Assembly (NCBI GenBank): GCA_015058955.1
Contig: SVBJ01000003.1
Coordinates: 1 to 64,000, forward strand
Direction of reading: 5' to 3'
Origin: Erysipelotrichaceae bacterium
GTDB lineage: Bacteria; Bacillota_I; Bacilli_A; Erysipelotrichales; Erysipelotrichaceae
DNA: 64,000 bases
Shown in pieces: positions 29,117-35,669 of the stretch (within the stretch, counting starts at the first letter, position 1; each line of letters opens with the position of its first letter). A model generated the notes under the pieces. The model saw nothing but the letters and a program-made list of their open reading frames with translations. It did not search any database and had not been told where the DNA came from. The position numbers were made by a program, and so were the translations under genes.

Positions 29117-30004
29117 ATGGAGAATATCACATTTAGAGAACTATTCGGTTACGAAAACAAAAACATCGTCATAACCGGGGCCTTCTCAGGCATGGGCAAA
29201 GCAGCAGCACGTCTGCTGAACGAATTAGGTGCCAATGTCTATGCTGTATGTCGCAGAAATGGCCGTCATAGCACACTTGACTTTCCAGTAAAGAAGATTC
29301 TTTATGCTGATTTAGGCGTTAAGGAAGATCTGGACAGTCTTTTGAAACAGATGCCGAATAACATTCATGCTTTGTTCTTCTGCCACGGTATCGCCCTTAA
29401 CTCACAGGGTACTTACTATTTTGAGGGGTCCAATGCCGAAGAAGTAATGAAGGTCAATCTTCTTTCCACAAAATATCTGATTTCTAATATAATAGAAAAG
29501 ATGGAACCTTCATCATCCATCAGCATCATTGCTTCTTCCGGAGGCTGGAACTGGAGGGAAAACCGGGAAAACTGCCAGGAGCTTCTGGATACTGAAACTT
29601 ATGAAGATGGTGTAAAATGGTGTATGGAACATCATGATGTGATTGCTTCGGCATATGTATTCTCAAAGGAATGCCTGAACTATTATGTCGTAGCTAACAC
29701 GTTCAACCCGATGTTTGTTGAAAAGAAGATCAGGATAAACTGTCTGAATCCCGGTAATACAGATACCGGACTGAAGTCAGATTTCGGAAAGTATACTTCA
29801 TCAACACATGATGAAGCCCAGGGGATTGAAATGATTGAGGACATCTTCCTGAAACCATGGGATGGTTATTGGGCAAGCCCGGAGCAGATGGGTTATCCAT
29901 TGGTCTGCATGGGTTCAAGGATTTTCAACTACATGTCCGGGCAGACAATCTTCATTGATTACGGTATTTCCAATACCTGGTTATTTAATCCATATTGGTT
30001 CTAG
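29117..30004 (+). CDS. Second SDR oxidoreductase of cluster
   Basis: 295 aa from the chosen ATG (AAAGG lies 8 bp upstream; GTG and ATG codons farther up are less well placed). The cofactor loop is TGAFSGMG, the catalytic Ser is in ASSGG, and YxxxK reads YVFSK. FCHG replaces the usual NNAG, and INCLNPGNTDTG follows. It differs from the SDR at 25888 and is closer in layout to hydroxysteroid or alcohol dehydrogenases. It overlaps the region just upstream of folC. Probably a second oxidation or reduction in the same pathway. Confidence 0.84.
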   Translation: MENITFRELFGYENKNIVITGAFSGMGKAAARLLNELGANVYAVCRRNGRHSTLDFPVKKILYADLGVKEDLDSLLKQMPNNIHALFFCHGIALNSQGTYYFEGSNAEEVMKVNLLSTKYLISNIIEKMEPSSSISIIASSGGWNWRENRENCQELLDTETYEDGVKWCMEHHDVIASAYVFSKECLNYYVVANTFNPMFVEKKIRINCLNPGNTDTGLKSDFGKYTSSTHDEAQGIEMIEDIFLKPWDGYWASPEQMGYPLVCMGSRIFNYMSGQTIFIDYGISNTWLFNPYWF

Positions 30005-30012
30005 AAAGAAAA

Positions 30013-31257
30013 ATGTTTAACAGCGCTCAGGAATTTATTGACTTCATTATTACCAGAAAAACAACCAGCGATAACCGCGCAGGTTTTCATGCGCTTCTGG
30101 ACAGTCTTGGTCATCCTGAAAGACAGCTGAAATGCCTTCATGTTGCCGGAACCAACGGCAAGGGCAGCACAACTGATTATCTCAGAAGCATTCTTCAGCA
30201 GCACGGTTACAGGGTTGGTTCCTTCACCAGTCCGCATCTGATCGTTCATAACGACCGCATCAGGATCAATAATCAGTTCATTTCCGATGAGGACCTGCTG
30301 GCATACGGCAACAGATTCCGGGAATATTATGATCAATATGATCTCTCCATGTTCCAGATCGACATGCTAATCAGCATTTACTACTTTCTGGAAAACAAGG
30401 TGGACTATGTTGTCTATGAAGTAGGAATGGGAGGAAGGCTGGATACTACAAACGTCATCATTCCTATGGTAAGCGTGATAACCAACATAGGATTTGACCA
30501 CATGGCCTATCTGGGTGATACCCTGCCAAAGATTGCCTATGAAAAAGCCGGAATCATCAAGGAAGGTGTTCCGGTATTTACCGGCGAAACCAAGAAATCA
30601 TGCCTGGAAGTATTTGATCGGGTAGCCCGGGAAAAGCATACGGCAGTAACAAAAACAAGGGCTCCAGAAGGTCAGTTAATCAATAACAGAGTGTTTTTCC
30701 GTTATCGCGGATATGATATAAGCCTGCCGACCATGGCTCTCTATCAGGTTAAAAACGCCTCACTGGCCTTACGGGTCGCTGAATATCTCAGAAAATCCCA
30801 CCTGATTGAATTAAGCAAGGACGACATCAGAAGCGGTCTGCAGAATACAGCCTGGGCCGGGCGCTTTGAAATCATCAGTGACAAACCGAGAATAATCGTT
30901 GACGGTGCCCATAACGAGCACGGCATAACAGCCGTCCAGGACAGCATCAGAAATCTTGAGCATCCCCTCTGCATAATTGCCAGTATTCTTTCTGACAAAC
31001 AATATGATAAAATGATTAAGAAACTTAATCAGCTGGCTGATGAGCTGATAATCACGACATTCAGCAGCAGCCGCAGCACCCCGCTGCAGCAGCTGGTCGG
31101 TAACAATGACGTTACCGCAATAAGCGACTACCGCCGGGCTCTGGATTACGCAACCGAGAAGTATGCCAGCGGAACCATTCTGATCACCGGTTCCCTGTAC
31201 TTCGTCAGCGAGATCCGCAGCCTTTACAAAGGAGACAACCGAAATGACAACACGTAA
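30013..31257 (+). CDS. folC: Folylpolyglutamate/dihydrofolate synthase
   Basis: Adds glutamate to folates so they are retained and bind enzymes well. Mur-ligase fold of 414 aa. The ATP loop GTNGKGST, FTSPHL, YEVGMGGRLD and the later DGAHNEHG are diagnostic. The ATG at 30013 was chosen; an in-frame TTG upstream overlaps the SDR stop. No dihydropteroate genes are nearby, so polyglutamylation of imported folate is the likely role. The stop overlaps the start of folT by 14 bp. Confidence 0.94.
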   Translation: MFNSAQEFIDFIITRKTTSDNRAGFHALLDSLGHPERQLKCLHVAGTNGKGSTTDYLRSILQQHGYRVGSFTSPHLIVHNDRIRINNQFISDEDLLAYGNRFREYYDQYDLSMFQIDMLISIYYFLENKVDYVVYEVGMGGRLDTTNVIIPMVSVITNIGFDHMAYLGDTLPKIAYEKAGIIKEGVPVFTGETKKSCLEVFDRVAREKHTAVTKTRAPEGQLINNRVFFRYRGYDISLPTMALYQVKNASLALRVAEYLRKSHLIELSKDDIRSGLQNTAWAGRFEIISDKPRIIVDGAHNEHGITAVQDSIRNLEHPLCIIASILSDKQYDKMIKKLNQLADELIITTFSSSRSTPLQQLVGNNDVTAISDYRRALDYATEKYASGTILITGSLYFVSEIRSLYKGDNRNDNT

Positions 31258-31765
31258 ACTGACTACCTTAGCCATGCTTACTGCCATCTATGTGGTATTA
31301 AGCCTGCTGACACCCATTAAGGTCATTAACTTCAAGTTCACGCTTGAAGCTTTTCCGGTACTGATTGCCGGACTGTTAATGGGACCTCTTGACGGATTCA
31401 TCGTCGGATTGGCCGGCAGCGGCATTTATCAGGTGTTTTTCTCATCATACGGCATTACCGCAACAACTCCGTTATGGATCCTGCCTCATGCCTTAAGCGG
31501 ATTTCTGGCCGGATATCTTTCCCGAAACGTCAAGCAGTATAATGTCATCAACGTTACGATAATTGCGACGATCTGTGCCTTTACGGTTACGATATTCAAT
31601 ACCCTGGCACTTTACGTCGACTCCAAACTGTTTGGATATTACTCTTCCAAGCTGGTCTTCGGAGCACTATTACTGAAGTTTCTGGCCGGGCTGATCCTGT
31701 CAGTACTGTATGCAATGATCCTGCCGAAACTGATTACACAGCTTAAGAAACTGCTGAAGAAATAA
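31244..31765 (+). CDS. folT: ECF folate transporter S component
   Basis: 173-aa membrane protein with about six helices. The opening TTRKLTTLAMLTAIYVVLS and the PVLIAGLLMGPLDGFIVGLAG segment are characteristic of FolT, the folate-binding S component that works with a shared EcfA/A'/T module encoded elsewhere. It overlaps folC, so folate uptake and polyglutamylation are co-expressed with the one-carbon cluster. A terminator follows. Confidence 0.88.
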   Translation: MTTRKLTTLAMLTAIYVVLSLLTPIKVINFKFTLEAFPVLIAGLLMGPLDGFIVGLAGSGIYQVFFSSYGITATTPLWILPHALSGFLAGYLSRNVKQYNVINVTIIATICAFTVTIFNTLALYVDSKLFGYYSSKLVFGALLLKFLAGLILSVLYAMILPKLITQLKKLLKK

Positions 31766-31791: not shown

Positions 31792-31820
31792 TTTACACTT
31801 TTGTTTCAGGTTAATATAAT
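31792..31820 (+). promoter_or_regulatory. Sigma-A promoter of magnesium operon
   Basis: TTTACA (31792-31797) and TATAAT (31815-31820) with exactly 17 bp between. The transcript would start near 31827, leaving a leader of about 140 nt before mgtA. Confidence 0.8.
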
Positions 31821-31840
31821 GAAGTTAGAAAAGGAGAATA

Positions 31841-31919
31841 ATGCAGTATGTCCCACCCAGATGACTATCACAGTAAACGCATCATGAAATACAGCGGCCA
31901 TGCTGCATCCAGACAGTAG
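31841..31919 (+). promoter_or_regulatory. Possible mgtA leader peptides and hairpin
   Basis: Two short overlapping reading frames follow AAGGAG (31831-31836): a 7-codon one at 31841-31864 (MQYVPPR) and a 23-codon one at 31848-31919 (MSHPDDYHSKRIMKYSGHAA and three more). The first has Pro-Pro and the second Pro-Asp-Asp near its start. The second overlaps a hairpin (GGCCATGCTG near 31896 pairing with CAGCATGACC near 31930, one mismatch). Acidic and Pro codons in leaders upstream of mgtA are known to sense low Mg2+ in enteric bacteria by weakening the ribosome. Equivalent function here is inferred. Confidence 0.5.
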
Positions 31920-31968
31920 TTTTTTCTGACAGCATGACCCGCTTTGGACTGACAAGGAGGGTTTTTAT

Positions 31969-34587
31969 ATGGCAAAGGCAAAGAACAATACCGACAGCAA
32001 GATCGTCGAAAAGAAACTCGAAGAATACTCTCAGTTAAGCAAGGAAGAGCTGTTTGAAAGATTCGATATTGATAACAGCGGCTTAAGCAATGAACAGGTT
32101 GCCGCCAATACGGAAAAATACGGCAAGAACATAATCAACCAGTCCAACGAAAACACATTGATCATCCGCCTGAAGGATGCGGTGATCAATCCTTTTAACG
32201 TTGTATTACTGGCAGTAGCAGGTGTAACTTACTTCACGGATGTCATTCTGGCGGAAGATGCAAGTTATGCCACTTTCGCCATGTTACTGATCATTGTCGG
32301 CATCTCATCAGCTGTATCATTTGTACAGTCTGAAAAAAGCAGCAACGCTGCCAAGCAGCTGCAGAAAATGATCAGCAACAACATCGAAGTAATCCGAAAC
32401 GGCTACTCCGTCACCATCAACATTGAGGACGCCGTTCCCGGTGACATCGTCAAGCTGGGAGCCGGTGACATGGTTCCCGGTGACGTCCGCTTCTATGATC
32501 TGAAGGACCTGTTCATCGACCAGTCTCAACTCACCGGTGAGTCAGTTCCGGTGGAAAAATTCACCGAATGCCATGAATTTGATAACATAACCGAACTTTC
32601 TAATATCGGCTTCATGGGCAGCAACATCGTCTCAGGCAGCGCCAAGGCCGTTATCCTGTCAACCGGTAACTATACATACTTCGGTTCCATGGCCAAGTCT
32701 CTGTCTTCGGAAAATACCAGAAGCACATTTGATGAAAACATGGATTCCATTTCCAGGCTGCTGATCAGATTCATGCTGGTAATGATTCCTGTCATCTTCG
32801 TTGCCAACCTGCTGACCAAAAACAACTGGCTTGATTCCCTGATGTTCGGCATTACCATCGCTGTTGGTCTGATGCCGGAAATGCTGCCGGTTATCATGAC
32901 CAGCTCCCTGGCCAAAGGCGCCATTGCCATGAGCAGAAAAAAGACAATTGTAAAGCGTCTTGGTGCCATTCAGACTTTCGGCGAAATGGATGTCCTGTGT
33001 ACCGATAAGACCGGTACCCTGACTGAAGATCAGGTAATCCTGGAAAAATATCTCAATCCAAAGGGTGAGGAAGACAGAAGAGTACTCTCACATGCCTTCC
33101 TTAACAGCTATTTCCAGACCGGAATGAAAAACCTGATGGACCGTGCAATCATCTCCAGAGGTGAAAAGGAAGGCTTAAGCAGACTTAAGAGAGAATACAT
33201 CAGAGAGGACGAGATCCCATTCGACTTCTCCAGACGCATGATGTCAGTGGTAATGAGAGACAAGAACGTCAAGCGTCAGCTGATCACCAAGGGTGCTGTT
33301 GATGAAGTAATCAGCCGCTGCCGTTATGTGGACGTTCACGGACAGGTTGAAGAAATCAATGACGAATGGCTCTCCATCGCCCGCAAGGTCGCTGATGATA
33401 ACGGTCGGGAAGGCATCAGAGTCATTGCCGTTGCTCAGAAAAATGAAATTCACGATGTCGATACCTTCGGCATTGACGATGAAAAGGACATGGTTCTGCT
33501 GGGATTCATCGGGTTCCTTGATCCTCCTAAGGAATCAGCCAAGCCGGCTCTGGATAACCTGAAGAAAGCCGGAATCAAGACCGTTGTTCTCACCGGTGAC
33601 AGTGAAGGCGTAGCCATTGCTGTAGCCAAGAGACTGGGAATTGATGTCACTTACACATATAACGGCGCAGCCGTTGAGAAGATGAGTGATGATGAGCTCA
33701 AGGAAGCCTGTGACAGGTGCTATGTATTTGCCAAGCTCAATCCAATGCAGAAAAAGAGGATCGTCTCCATCATGCAGCAACAGGGACATACCGTCGGCTA
33801 CATGGGTGACGGCATCAATGACTCCCCTCCTCTGAAGCAGGCAGACGTAGGCATTTCCGTTGATACGGCAGTTGACATTGCCAAGGAAGTTGCCGACATC
33901 ATTCTGCTGGAAAAGGATCTGCAGGTTCTCGACGACGGTGTCTTGGAAGGCAGAAGAACCTTTGCCAACATGAACAAGTATCTCAAGATGGCCATATCCG
34001 GTAACTTCGGTAACATGATCTCAGTGCTCATCGCTTCACTGGTATTGCCGTTCTTACCGCTAAAGCCGGTTCACATTCTGGTTCAGAACATCCTCAACGA
34101 CTTCGCTCAGCTGGGCATGCCGTTTGACAATGTTGAACCTGAATATGTTGAAAAGCCAAAGAAATGGAATGTCGACGGTATCAAGAAGTTCATGGTATAC
34201 TTCGGCTTACTGTCAACGATACTGGACATCCGGTGCTTCGCCGTATTATGGTTCGTCTTCCATTACGACAACCCCGGCAAGGCTGAATTCTTCCAGTGTG
34301 GATGGTTCATGTTCGGTGTCATTTCACAGACAATTGTCATTCATACAATAAGAACACATAAGCTGCCGTTTATCCAGGCTAACGCTTCCACCCAGCTGTA
34401 TATTTCCAATATTGCTGTAGTCATCGTTACCCTGATAATCGGCATGACTGATATTTCCCGCATATTCGATATGGGCAAGGTTCCGGGAATCTATGGGCTG
34501 TGGATGGTAATACTGCTGTTAGGCTATCTGCTGCTGGCCCAGATCATCAAGAAGATATACATCAGGATCAATAAGGAATGGATATAG
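31969..34587 (+). CDS. mgtA: Magnesium-importing P-type ATPase
   Basis: 872-aa P-type ATPase of the IIIB group with about ten membrane helices. The phosphorylation motif CTDKTGTLTED, TGES in the actuator domain, and GDGINDSPPLKQADVGISVD in the P-domain are all present. GITIAVGLMPEMLPVI is the ion-path segment characteristic of MgtA/MgtB. It imports Mg2+ at low supply. The gene is preceded by AAGGAGGG and a structured leader, and followed 12 bp later by an MgtE-derived protein. Confidence 0.95.
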   Translation: MAKAKNNTDSKIVEKKLEEYSQLSKEELFERFDIDNSGLSNEQVAANTEKYGKNIINQSNENTLIIRLKDAVINPFNVVLLAVAGVTYFTDVILAEDASYATFAMLLIIVGISSAVSFVQSEKSSNAAKQLQKMISNNIEVIRNGYSVTINIEDAVPGDIVKLGAGDMVPGDVRFYDLKDLFIDQSQLTGESVPVEKFTECHEFDNITELSNIGFMGSNIVSGSAKAVILSTGNYTYFGSMAKSLSSENTRSTFDENMDSISRLLIRFMLVMIPVIFVANLLTKNNWLDSLMFGITIAVGLMPEMLPVIMTSSLAKGAIAMSRKKTIVKRLGAIQTFGEMDVLCTDKTGTLTEDQVILEKYLNPKGEEDRRVLSHAFLNSYFQTGMKNLMDRAIISRGEKEGLSRLKREYIREDEIPFDFSRRMMSVVMRDKNVKRQLITKGAVDEVISRCRYVDVHGQVEEINDEWLSIARKVADDNGREGIRVIAVAQKNEIHDVDTFGIDDEKDMVLLGFIGFLDPPKESAKPALDNLKKAGIKTVVLTGDSEGVAIAVAKRLGIDVTYTYNGAAVEKMSDDELKEACDRCYVFAKLNPMQKKRIVSIMQQQGHTVGYMGDGINDSPPLKQADVGISVDTAVDIAKEVADIILLEKDLQVLDDGVLEGRRTFANMNKYLKMAISGNFGNMISVLIASLVLPFLPLKPVHILVQNILNDFAQLGMPFDNVEPEYVEKPKKWNVDGIKKFMVYFGLLSTILDIRCFAVLWFVFHYDNPGKAEFFQCGWFMFGVISQTIVIHTIRTHKLPFIQANASTQLYISNIAVVIVTLIIGMTDISRIFDMGKVPGIYGLWMVILLLGYLLLAQIIKKIYIRINKEWI

Positions 34588-34599
34588 GAGGTTAGGAAA

Positions 34600-35622
34600 A
34601 TGACTGAAAAAAACAGTGAAGAAATAATGGATGAAAGATATTACGGTCAGGAAATATTTGATCTGGTCCGTAAGACTCCGGATAAGAAGAAACTGGCCAA
34701 TGCTCTGTCATACTATCATGACAATGACATTGCCAGCGTACTGAGCTATCTGACCCCAAAGGAAAGAAAGCATCTTTACGATTCCCTCGGCATTGAGAAC
34801 ACTTCCCGTGTCTTTGCCTATCTGGATGAAGATGTCGATAAATACTTTGCCGAGCTGGAGGCTGATCAGGCAGCTGACATCATCGAGGAAATGGACGCAG
34901 ACGACGCTGTCGATATCCTGGAAGGACTGGATGACAACAAGGCCAAGGAAATCATTAACCTGATGGAACCGGAAGCCAAGGAAGACATTGAACTGATCAA
35001 CTCTTATGCCGATAATCAGTTCGGTTCTCTGATGACCACCAACTTCATCGCCTTGAAATATGGCATGTCACTGAAGGACACCATGAATTCCCTGATCGAA
35101 CAGGCTAAGGAAAATGACAACATCGGTACCATTTATCTGCTCAATGAAAATGATACCCTCCATGGAGCCATTGACCTGCGCGACGTTCTGACTGCCAGGG
35201 ATGAAGAAGACTTCGAAGCAAGGATCATCACCTCTTACCCGTATGTATACGCTGATGATAACATCGACAAGGAATCACTGGATGAACTGATCGACTATGA
35301 TGAAGACTCAATTCCGGTACTTTCAGAAAGAACCAATGAAGTGCTTGGTGTCATAACCGCTCAGGACCTGGCTGAAATAACCTTTGATGAACTGGATGAG
35401 ACCGAGGAAGAGGAAGAACCGGTTGTTGTAAAGAAGAAAGACTACAGCAGCCTGTTACTGATCTGCGGTGCAGTTGCCCTGCTGGTTGGGGCCCTTTTGG
35501 GACACGGCAGTGCTCCTGATAACAAGACCAGGGAAACAGCATACATAGTATTGCTGATAGTTGGATCTCTGCTTTCCGTAATCGGCCTGTATTATTCGTT
35601 TTCAAAGAATAAGGCTGAATAA
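34600..35622 (+). CDS. MgtE N-domain/CBS protein with two-helix anchor, no channel
   Basis: 340 aa. Residues ~30-135 are an MgtE_N superhelix (LEADQAADIIEEMDADDAVD), ~145-262 two CBS domains (GSLMTTNFIALKYG and SIPVLSERTNEVLG), then an acidic linker (263-275) and only two membrane helices (283-302 and 313-333). Full MgtE has five C-terminal channel helices with an Asp-lined pore, and these are missing. The cytosolic MgtE domains bind Mg2+ and gate the channel. Here they look like a membrane-tethered Mg2+ sensor. GGAGG lies 12 bp upstream, next to the mgtA stop, so it is in the mgtA operon and may control or stabilise the pump. It is not a truncation artefact: the frame ends cleanly and has a terminator. 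Confidence 0.86.
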   Translation: MTEKNSEEIMDERYYGQEIFDLVRKTPDKKKLANALSYYHDNDIASVLSYLTPKERKHLYDSLGIENTSRVFAYLDEDVDKYFAELEADQAADIIEEMDADDAVDILEGLDDNKAKEIINLMEPEAKEDIELINSYADNQFGSLMTTNFIALKYGMSLKDTMNSLIEQAKENDNIGTIYLLNENDTLHGAIDLRDVLTARDEEDFEARIITSYPYVYADDNIDKESLDELIDYDEDSIPVLSERTNEVLGVITAQDLAEITFDELDETEEEEEPVVVKKKDYSSLLLICGAVALLVGALLGHGSAPDNKTRETAYIVLLIVGSLLSVIGLYYSFSKNKAE

Positions 35623-35634
35623 TCATTAAACAGC

Positions 35635-35669
35635 CAAAGAACCGGTACTCATCAGTATCGGTTCTTTTT
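35635..35669 (+). terminator. Terminator of magnesium operon
   Basis: AAAGAACCGGTACT and AGTATCGGTTCTTT pair with one mismatch around CATC, then TTT. It follows the MgtE-like gene. Confidence 0.88.

Follow-up and report, generated by a model that had tools for sequence, protein, structure and literature searches.

A channel-less, membrane-anchored MgtE relative encoded beside MgtA in gut Erysipelotrichaceae is a putative Mg2+-responsive regulator of the pump

The Mg2+ gate of the MgtE channel (T. thermophilus 2YVX/2ZY9; soluble part 2OUX; TIGR00400) is among the best understood, while the mechanism by which cytosolic Mg2+ limits the MgtA pump counts among the unknowns named in a recent review (PMC10710835). 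Proteins resembling the cytosolic part of MgtE have been described in the company of another transporter type: work published in 2014 on Nramp-related (NrmT) Mg2+ transporters reported an adjacent small gene resembling the MgtE cytosolic domain and suggested a feedback or chaperone role for its product (PMC4072509). In one test, rescue by the A. capsulatum Nramp transporter was no better when its MgtE-like fragment was co-expressed, and this transporter seemed to carry chiefly Mn2+ (PMC4072509). An MgtE_N-like domain is also reused for another purpose in flagellar E-ring proteins (PMC13023049). Two further groups of Mg2+-related proteins provide partial parallels to the locus analysed here, namely the enterobacterial MgtA/MgtB partners MgtS, MgtR and MgtU (PMC10710835), separate membrane proteins that act post-translationally on an MgtA-type pump, and the CNNM/CorC mediators of Mg2+ transport, in which a CBS pair is tethered to membrane helices in the service of Mg2+ homeostasis. 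The present locus combines elements of these systems in a pair of genes, mgtA and a gene that we call mgtX, for which control of MgtA in trans by a cytosolic Mg2+ sensor tethered to the membrane is the best-supported reading of the sequence evidence (probability roughly 0.6).

Within the 64,000-nucleotide stretch of DNA analysed (the window; all coordinates refer to its forward, or +, strand), mgtX occupies positions 34600..35622 and encodes a protein of 340 residues, MgtX. The first-pass annotation had described it as an MgtE_N domain and two CBS domains followed by two C-terminal helices in place of the five-helix Mg2+ pore, and this description is borne out, with the coordinates and the start codon, by the agreement of Pfam, TIGR00400, AlphaFold2 and Foldseek. 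The MgtE_N domain (34714..35016, residues 39-139) is matched by PF03448 with 81.5 bits against a cut-off of 25.9 (E 7e-23), and the CBS pair (35023..35385, residues 142-262) by PF00571 in two stretches (E 6e-10), with a fold match to 2oux/2yvy; Pfam gave no match in MgtX to the five-helix pore domain PF01769, to DUF21 or to the PRC-barrel. The model of full-length MgtE transporters, TIGR00400, scores 106.8 bits, below its cut-off of 232.75, and its alignment stops at profile position 271 of 450. An AlphaFold2 model, computed with 32 aligned sequences as input (mean pLDDT 82.7), has the soluble MgtE fold, and its top Foldseek match is the MgtE soluble part 2oux (TM 0.89 on target, rmsd 2.3, 257 columns), a TM of 0.87 being obtained for another such part, 2yvy. 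After the CBS pair the model contains only two further long helices (residues 283-302 and 308-339), predicted to form a membrane anchor (35446..35616). The plug helix, which in MgtE lies between the CBS pair and the pore, is missing in the alignment against full-length MgtE and is replaced by an acidic linker that appears disordered (35386..35445, residues 263-282; modelled with low confidence at 263-280, pLDDT <50). A complete channel is thus not predicted by AlphaFold2, and it is ruled out by the missing PF01769 match together with a Rho-independent terminator that follows the stop codon and ends the operon (35636..35667; 14-bp stem, -18.2 kcal/mol, z -6.9, then a U run). Complete copies of MgtX in other genomes measure 328-341 residues, the remaining copies being cut by contig ends, and 13 MgtX-specific residue positions were listed. 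The two-helix part drifts fast in sequence, with no conservation between genera; a fitting register and hhalign support of 11-19% are weak indications that it may descend from TM1-TM2 of MgtE.

How much of the MgtE chemistry has been preserved was assessed by mapping residues, in T. thermophilus MgtE numbering, across 24 MgtX rows and full-length MgtEs. D91, D95, R187, D188 and D247 (D101, D105, R194, D195 and D256 of MgtX) are invariant in 24/24 MgtX rows, and D250 is E in all of them (E259 of MgtX). D91 and D247 form the Mg4 pair, mutation of which weakens the N-CBS response of T. thermophilus MgtE (PMC5882242). Other positions have changed: E59 of the Mg7 site is R in 20 of 24 rows, D226 is retained in two genera and replaced by S in the third, E216 is variable, and F227, the adenine contact required for ATP binding by MgtE (PMC5529423), is E in every row as well as in both full-length MgtEs of this family that were aligned. 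As judged from this alignment, the core N-CBS bridge is retained in MgtX and the parts relaying the signal to the pore are lost, and in the ATP site R187 and D188 are kept with the adenine contact replaced. The kept bridging residues suggest that MgtX may bind Mg2+, with an affinity and ATP dependence that may differ from those of MgtE in view of the E59, F227 and D226 changes and the loss of the plug helix. Retained Mg2+ ligands in a very acidic protein could also suit a protein that buffers or accepts Mg2+ locally where the ion leaves the pump on the cytosolic side, with no regulatory function, and a chaperone role has been raised for the Nramp-linked fragments (PMC4072509); we consider this very improbable, as a stoichiometric Mg2+ chaperone gains little when free Mg2+ is millimolar, and the conserved CBS module would be left unexplained.

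The gene upstream, mgtA (31969..34587), encodes a Mg2+-importing P-type ATPase of 872 residues and is, by its TIGR01524 score (1013.7 bits vs. a cut-off of 610.75), a true MgtA. The distance of 12 bp given for the two genes at first pass holds, with mgtA ending at 34587 and mgtX beginning at 34600, and the mgtA stop codon lies inside the mgtX ribosome-binding site (ATATAGGAGG, 34585..34591), from which translational coupling is predicted. The same overlap occurs at all loci of two genera, and in the third genus the spacing is also close (11-15 bp). A probable sigma-70 promoter (31792..31820; TTTACA-17-TATAAT, 11/12) precedes the operon; such sites are not above the chance number in a scan of the region, and the TTTAC and TATAAT elements occupy the same position in related species. 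Directly upstream of the mgtA leader, at 29995-31765, a Mur-ligase/FolC-like gene overlaps by 14 bp with a gene for a folate-type ECF transporter S component, the end of which also precedes mgtA in the nearest relative (locus L098), not in the other species examined.

A search for further MgtE_N-CBS proteins with two helices beside mgtA, as proposed in the first-pass annotation, showed that the arrangement recurs and so exceeds what chance would give: MgtX is present in 23 genomes from three genera of one family (Erysipelotrichaceae-like gut MAGs; 273 family genomes searched), the close relatives being Erysipelotrichaceae, several of them from ruminant gut. At all 22 loci with the upstream side on the contig, mgtA directly precedes mgtX on the same strand with a gap of 11-15 bp; the pair was never seen broken, and mgtX was never seen next to mgtE. 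Genes flanking the pair vary from species to species, which argues for more than inherited synteny. Moreover, the genomes whose MgtA shares 65% identity or more with that of the window are exactly the MgtX genomes (23/23, with 273 searched), while MgtX was found, at the threshold used, in 0/42 genomes holding only more distant MgtAs (<=58% identity), some of which belong to the three MgtX genera (G001, G004 and G007; G175 and G183; G269, G270 and G274). Other MgtAs, some of the same three genera among them, are mostly without such a partner. Several apparent short forms were discarded: candidates in G027 and G022 sit at contig ends, that in G443 is an MgtE truncated where its contig stops, and the close relative in G157 is a full-length MgtE of 475 residues, not MgtX. 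A wider search at E 1e-20 in 394 genomes drawn from the class, which would miss distant short forms, revealed no further channel-less case among the matches listed; frames ending at an in-frame TGA were set aside, these genomes probably reading TGA as tryptophan.

In quick trees (SH-aLRT support, without bootstrap), the MgtX-linked MgtAs form one clade (100), and MgtX forms one clade (99) within the MgtEs, beside the full-length MgtE of a related species (96). The single clade inside the MgtEs and the broadly similar branching order of the two trees make a single derivation of MgtX from a full-length MgtE, followed by joint travel with its MgtA, the most likely history. Given a single origin, the 23 genomes cannot be counted as so many separate events, and the weight of the association rests on the pair never being seen broken. 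Between pairs of related species, dN/dS amounts to 0.00-0.08 for MgtX residues 1-268, 0.02-0.09 for MgtA and 0.03-0.52 for the MgtX anchor. By this measure, purifying selection on the cytosolic part is strong, as tight as that on MgtA, and its low values against the drifting anchor indicate that the sensor is the target of selection, the helices seeming to serve only as membrane anchor. A recent truncation confined to one strain, or an assembly artefact, is ruled out by these ratios and by the 23 copies in three genera. The notion that MgtX is a functionless, decaying remnant of a second mgtE has in its favour that MgtX did arise through pore loss from a full-length MgtE, and its probability is nonetheless negligible in the face of these copies, of 268 residues under strong purifying selection and of a fixed position after mgtA.

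Selection on the anchor also bears on the possibility that MgtX stabilises MgtA or helps in its assembly, providing Mg2+-dependent protection of MgtA from membrane proteases, or its delivery to them, in the manner of MgtS, MgtR or MgtU with a built-in sensor. These three proteins are hardly more than one membrane helix, yet the helices are the least conserved part of MgtX. The tight mgtA linkage with overlapping signals and the known precedent of small enterobacterial membrane proteins controlling MgtA turnover (PMC10710835) speak for such a function, which we regard as unlikely.

Transport components in the mgtX genomes were surveyed as well. One full-length MgtE each is found in 15/23 of them, and no MgtE channel was found in the other eight, three of which are at least 90% complete (G161, G172 and G169) and contain CorA; missing contigs could account for the absence of MgtE in some genomes, hardly in all. 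In the genome from which the window derives, one full-length MgtE (L002) is present that shares 43% identity with MgtX across the sensor, and CorA was not found. These counts are relevant to a reading in which the partner of MgtX is MgtE, mixed dimers of the two tuning or blocking the channel while the pump is in use and the mgtA link serving only co-expression. MgtX descends from MgtE, which functions as a dimer (PMC5882242), and most (but not all) mgtX genomes hold one full MgtE with which it could pair; set against this are the eight genomes without the channel (three of them, as noted, at least 90% complete), the loss of plug and pore from MgtX, and its linkage to mgtA and never to mgtE. 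We therefore judge a partnership with MgtE to be a doubtful proposition.

The preferred reading, regulation of MgtA, was already raised at first pass, where the sensor was proposed to act on the pump; it is now supported by the strict linkage, the co-occurrence with one MgtA clade, the likely translational coupling and the selection on the sensor, while the Mg2+/ATP chemistry of MgtE is only partly retained. The retention of the pair in 23 genomes suggests that MgtX is probably a Mg2+-controlled brake or regulator of MgtA, and the following scheme can be envisaged. In the ancestor of this bacterial group, an MgtE channel would have lost its pore once, giving rise to MgtX, which would then have become the dedicated partner of one MgtA clade, encoded in the same operon and probably translationally coupled. 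The two-helix anchor would tether MgtX to the inner membrane face. At high free cytosolic Mg2+, ions may bridge its N and CBS domains, compacting it as in MgtE; the closed or the open form presumably contacts MgtA, and we propose that compacted MgtX slows the pump and that low Mg2+ releases it. Of the two possible signs of the effect, inhibition at high Mg2+ is more likely than activation at low Mg2+, because the module acts in this way in MgtE and E. coli MgtA is reportedly inhibited by high Mg2+ (PMC10925321). Taken one step further, MgtX would represent a dedicated, membrane-tethered Mg2+ sensor subunit of a P-type ATPase that was acquired from a channel of unrelated type, with MgtE's feedback gate operating in trans on MgtA, an interpretation to which we give slightly better than even odds.

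Compared side by side with the known systems, MgtX shares with the MgtE channel the MgtE_N domain and CBS pair, the fold, the main N-CBS Mg2+ bridge and direct descent, and differs from it in the absence of the five-helix pore, the plug helix and the pore Mg2+ site, in the replacement of some cytosolic Mg2+/ATP ligands and in having a P-type ATPase as partner. With the NrmT/Nramp-linked fragments it shares the principle of a channel-less MgtE-domain protein encoded beside a different transporter. The statement made at first pass that no characterised example was known needs correction on this account, as these fragments are already on record and a possible role in feedback regulation has been considered for them (PMC4072509). 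Among the loci that we examined, PRC-barrel + MgtE_N + CBS proteins are encoded directly upstream of Nramp genes in Eremiobacterota and in Halobacteriovorax/Bacteriovorax, and an MgtE_N-CBS relative directly upstream of an Nramp gene in a Rhodospirillales bacterium (Nramp-linked channel-less loci L071, L072, L075, L076, L077 and L079; PRC-barrel present in L067, L071 and L076). These proteins appear soluble, carry the PRC-barrel in those scanned and precede the Nramp gene, whereas MgtX has a two-helix anchor and no PRC domain and follows mgtA (22/22 loci), not Nramp. MgtS, MgtR and MgtU, unlike MgtX, have <50 residues and no sensor domain and are unrelated to it, and CNNM/CorC proteins differ in their DUF21 membrane domain and lack of MgtE_N. 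In the open literature, most subscription papers being outside the scope of this search, no paper on a channel-less MgtE paired with MgtA was found. Thus, the principle of an MgtE fragment is known, and the novelty appears to lie in the P-type ATPase partner and the membrane anchor. Taken with the Nramp-linked fragments, the pair points to the combination of a single Mg2+ sensor module with at least two other transporter classes, and Mg2+ sensors would, if the proposed function is true, be exchangeable modules between such classes. With the gate borrowed by a pump in the form of a separate protein, the two components can be produced, altered by mutation and combined independently of each other, so that the way in which cytosolic Mg2+ restrains MgtA becomes open to direct testing.

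Expression of the pair may be subject to a further level of control. A conserved leader of ~140 bases (31828..31968), detected with a covariance model, precedes mgtA in 22/23 mgtX genomes across all three genera (two of the genomes with leader matches being outside the training set of the model) and is found elsewhere only near noise level; no Rfam match to an M-box or other known riboswitch was obtained for it, even at E 1. It contains a short reading frame (31848..31919; MSHPDDYHSKRIMKYSGHAASRQ, then a stop codon) with acidic residues within the first six codons, the pattern DDYHSR..GGHAA being kept in related species of two genera and MEAxE(V/I)PLS in the third. A predicted hairpin (31936..31963) covers the mgtA ribosome-binding site, and its 5' arm can alternatively pair with an upstream GCGG element, both pairings being possible in 20/20 leaders examined. 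The whole leader folds no better than shuffled sequence (z -0.34), and of its structure only the local hairpin is supported, by a compensatory change between genera (CCC/GGG vs. GCC/GGC) read from alignments. MgtL-type control of enterobacterial mgtA, in which ribosomes are destabilised by early acidic residues when Mg2+ is low (PMC11282234), offers a parallel in its short reading frame with early acidic residues and its alternative RNA pairings; it has no sequence relation to the leader found here, and the alternative hairpin would cover the mgtA ribosome-binding site here, whereas the MgtL type exposes a Rho site. By analogy, low Mg2+ might be guessed to raise mgtA-mgtX expression via the leader. 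One genome (G003) contains two mgtA genes (L098 and L110), of which the MgtX-linked type has the leader and the other type is without it, and one MgtX.
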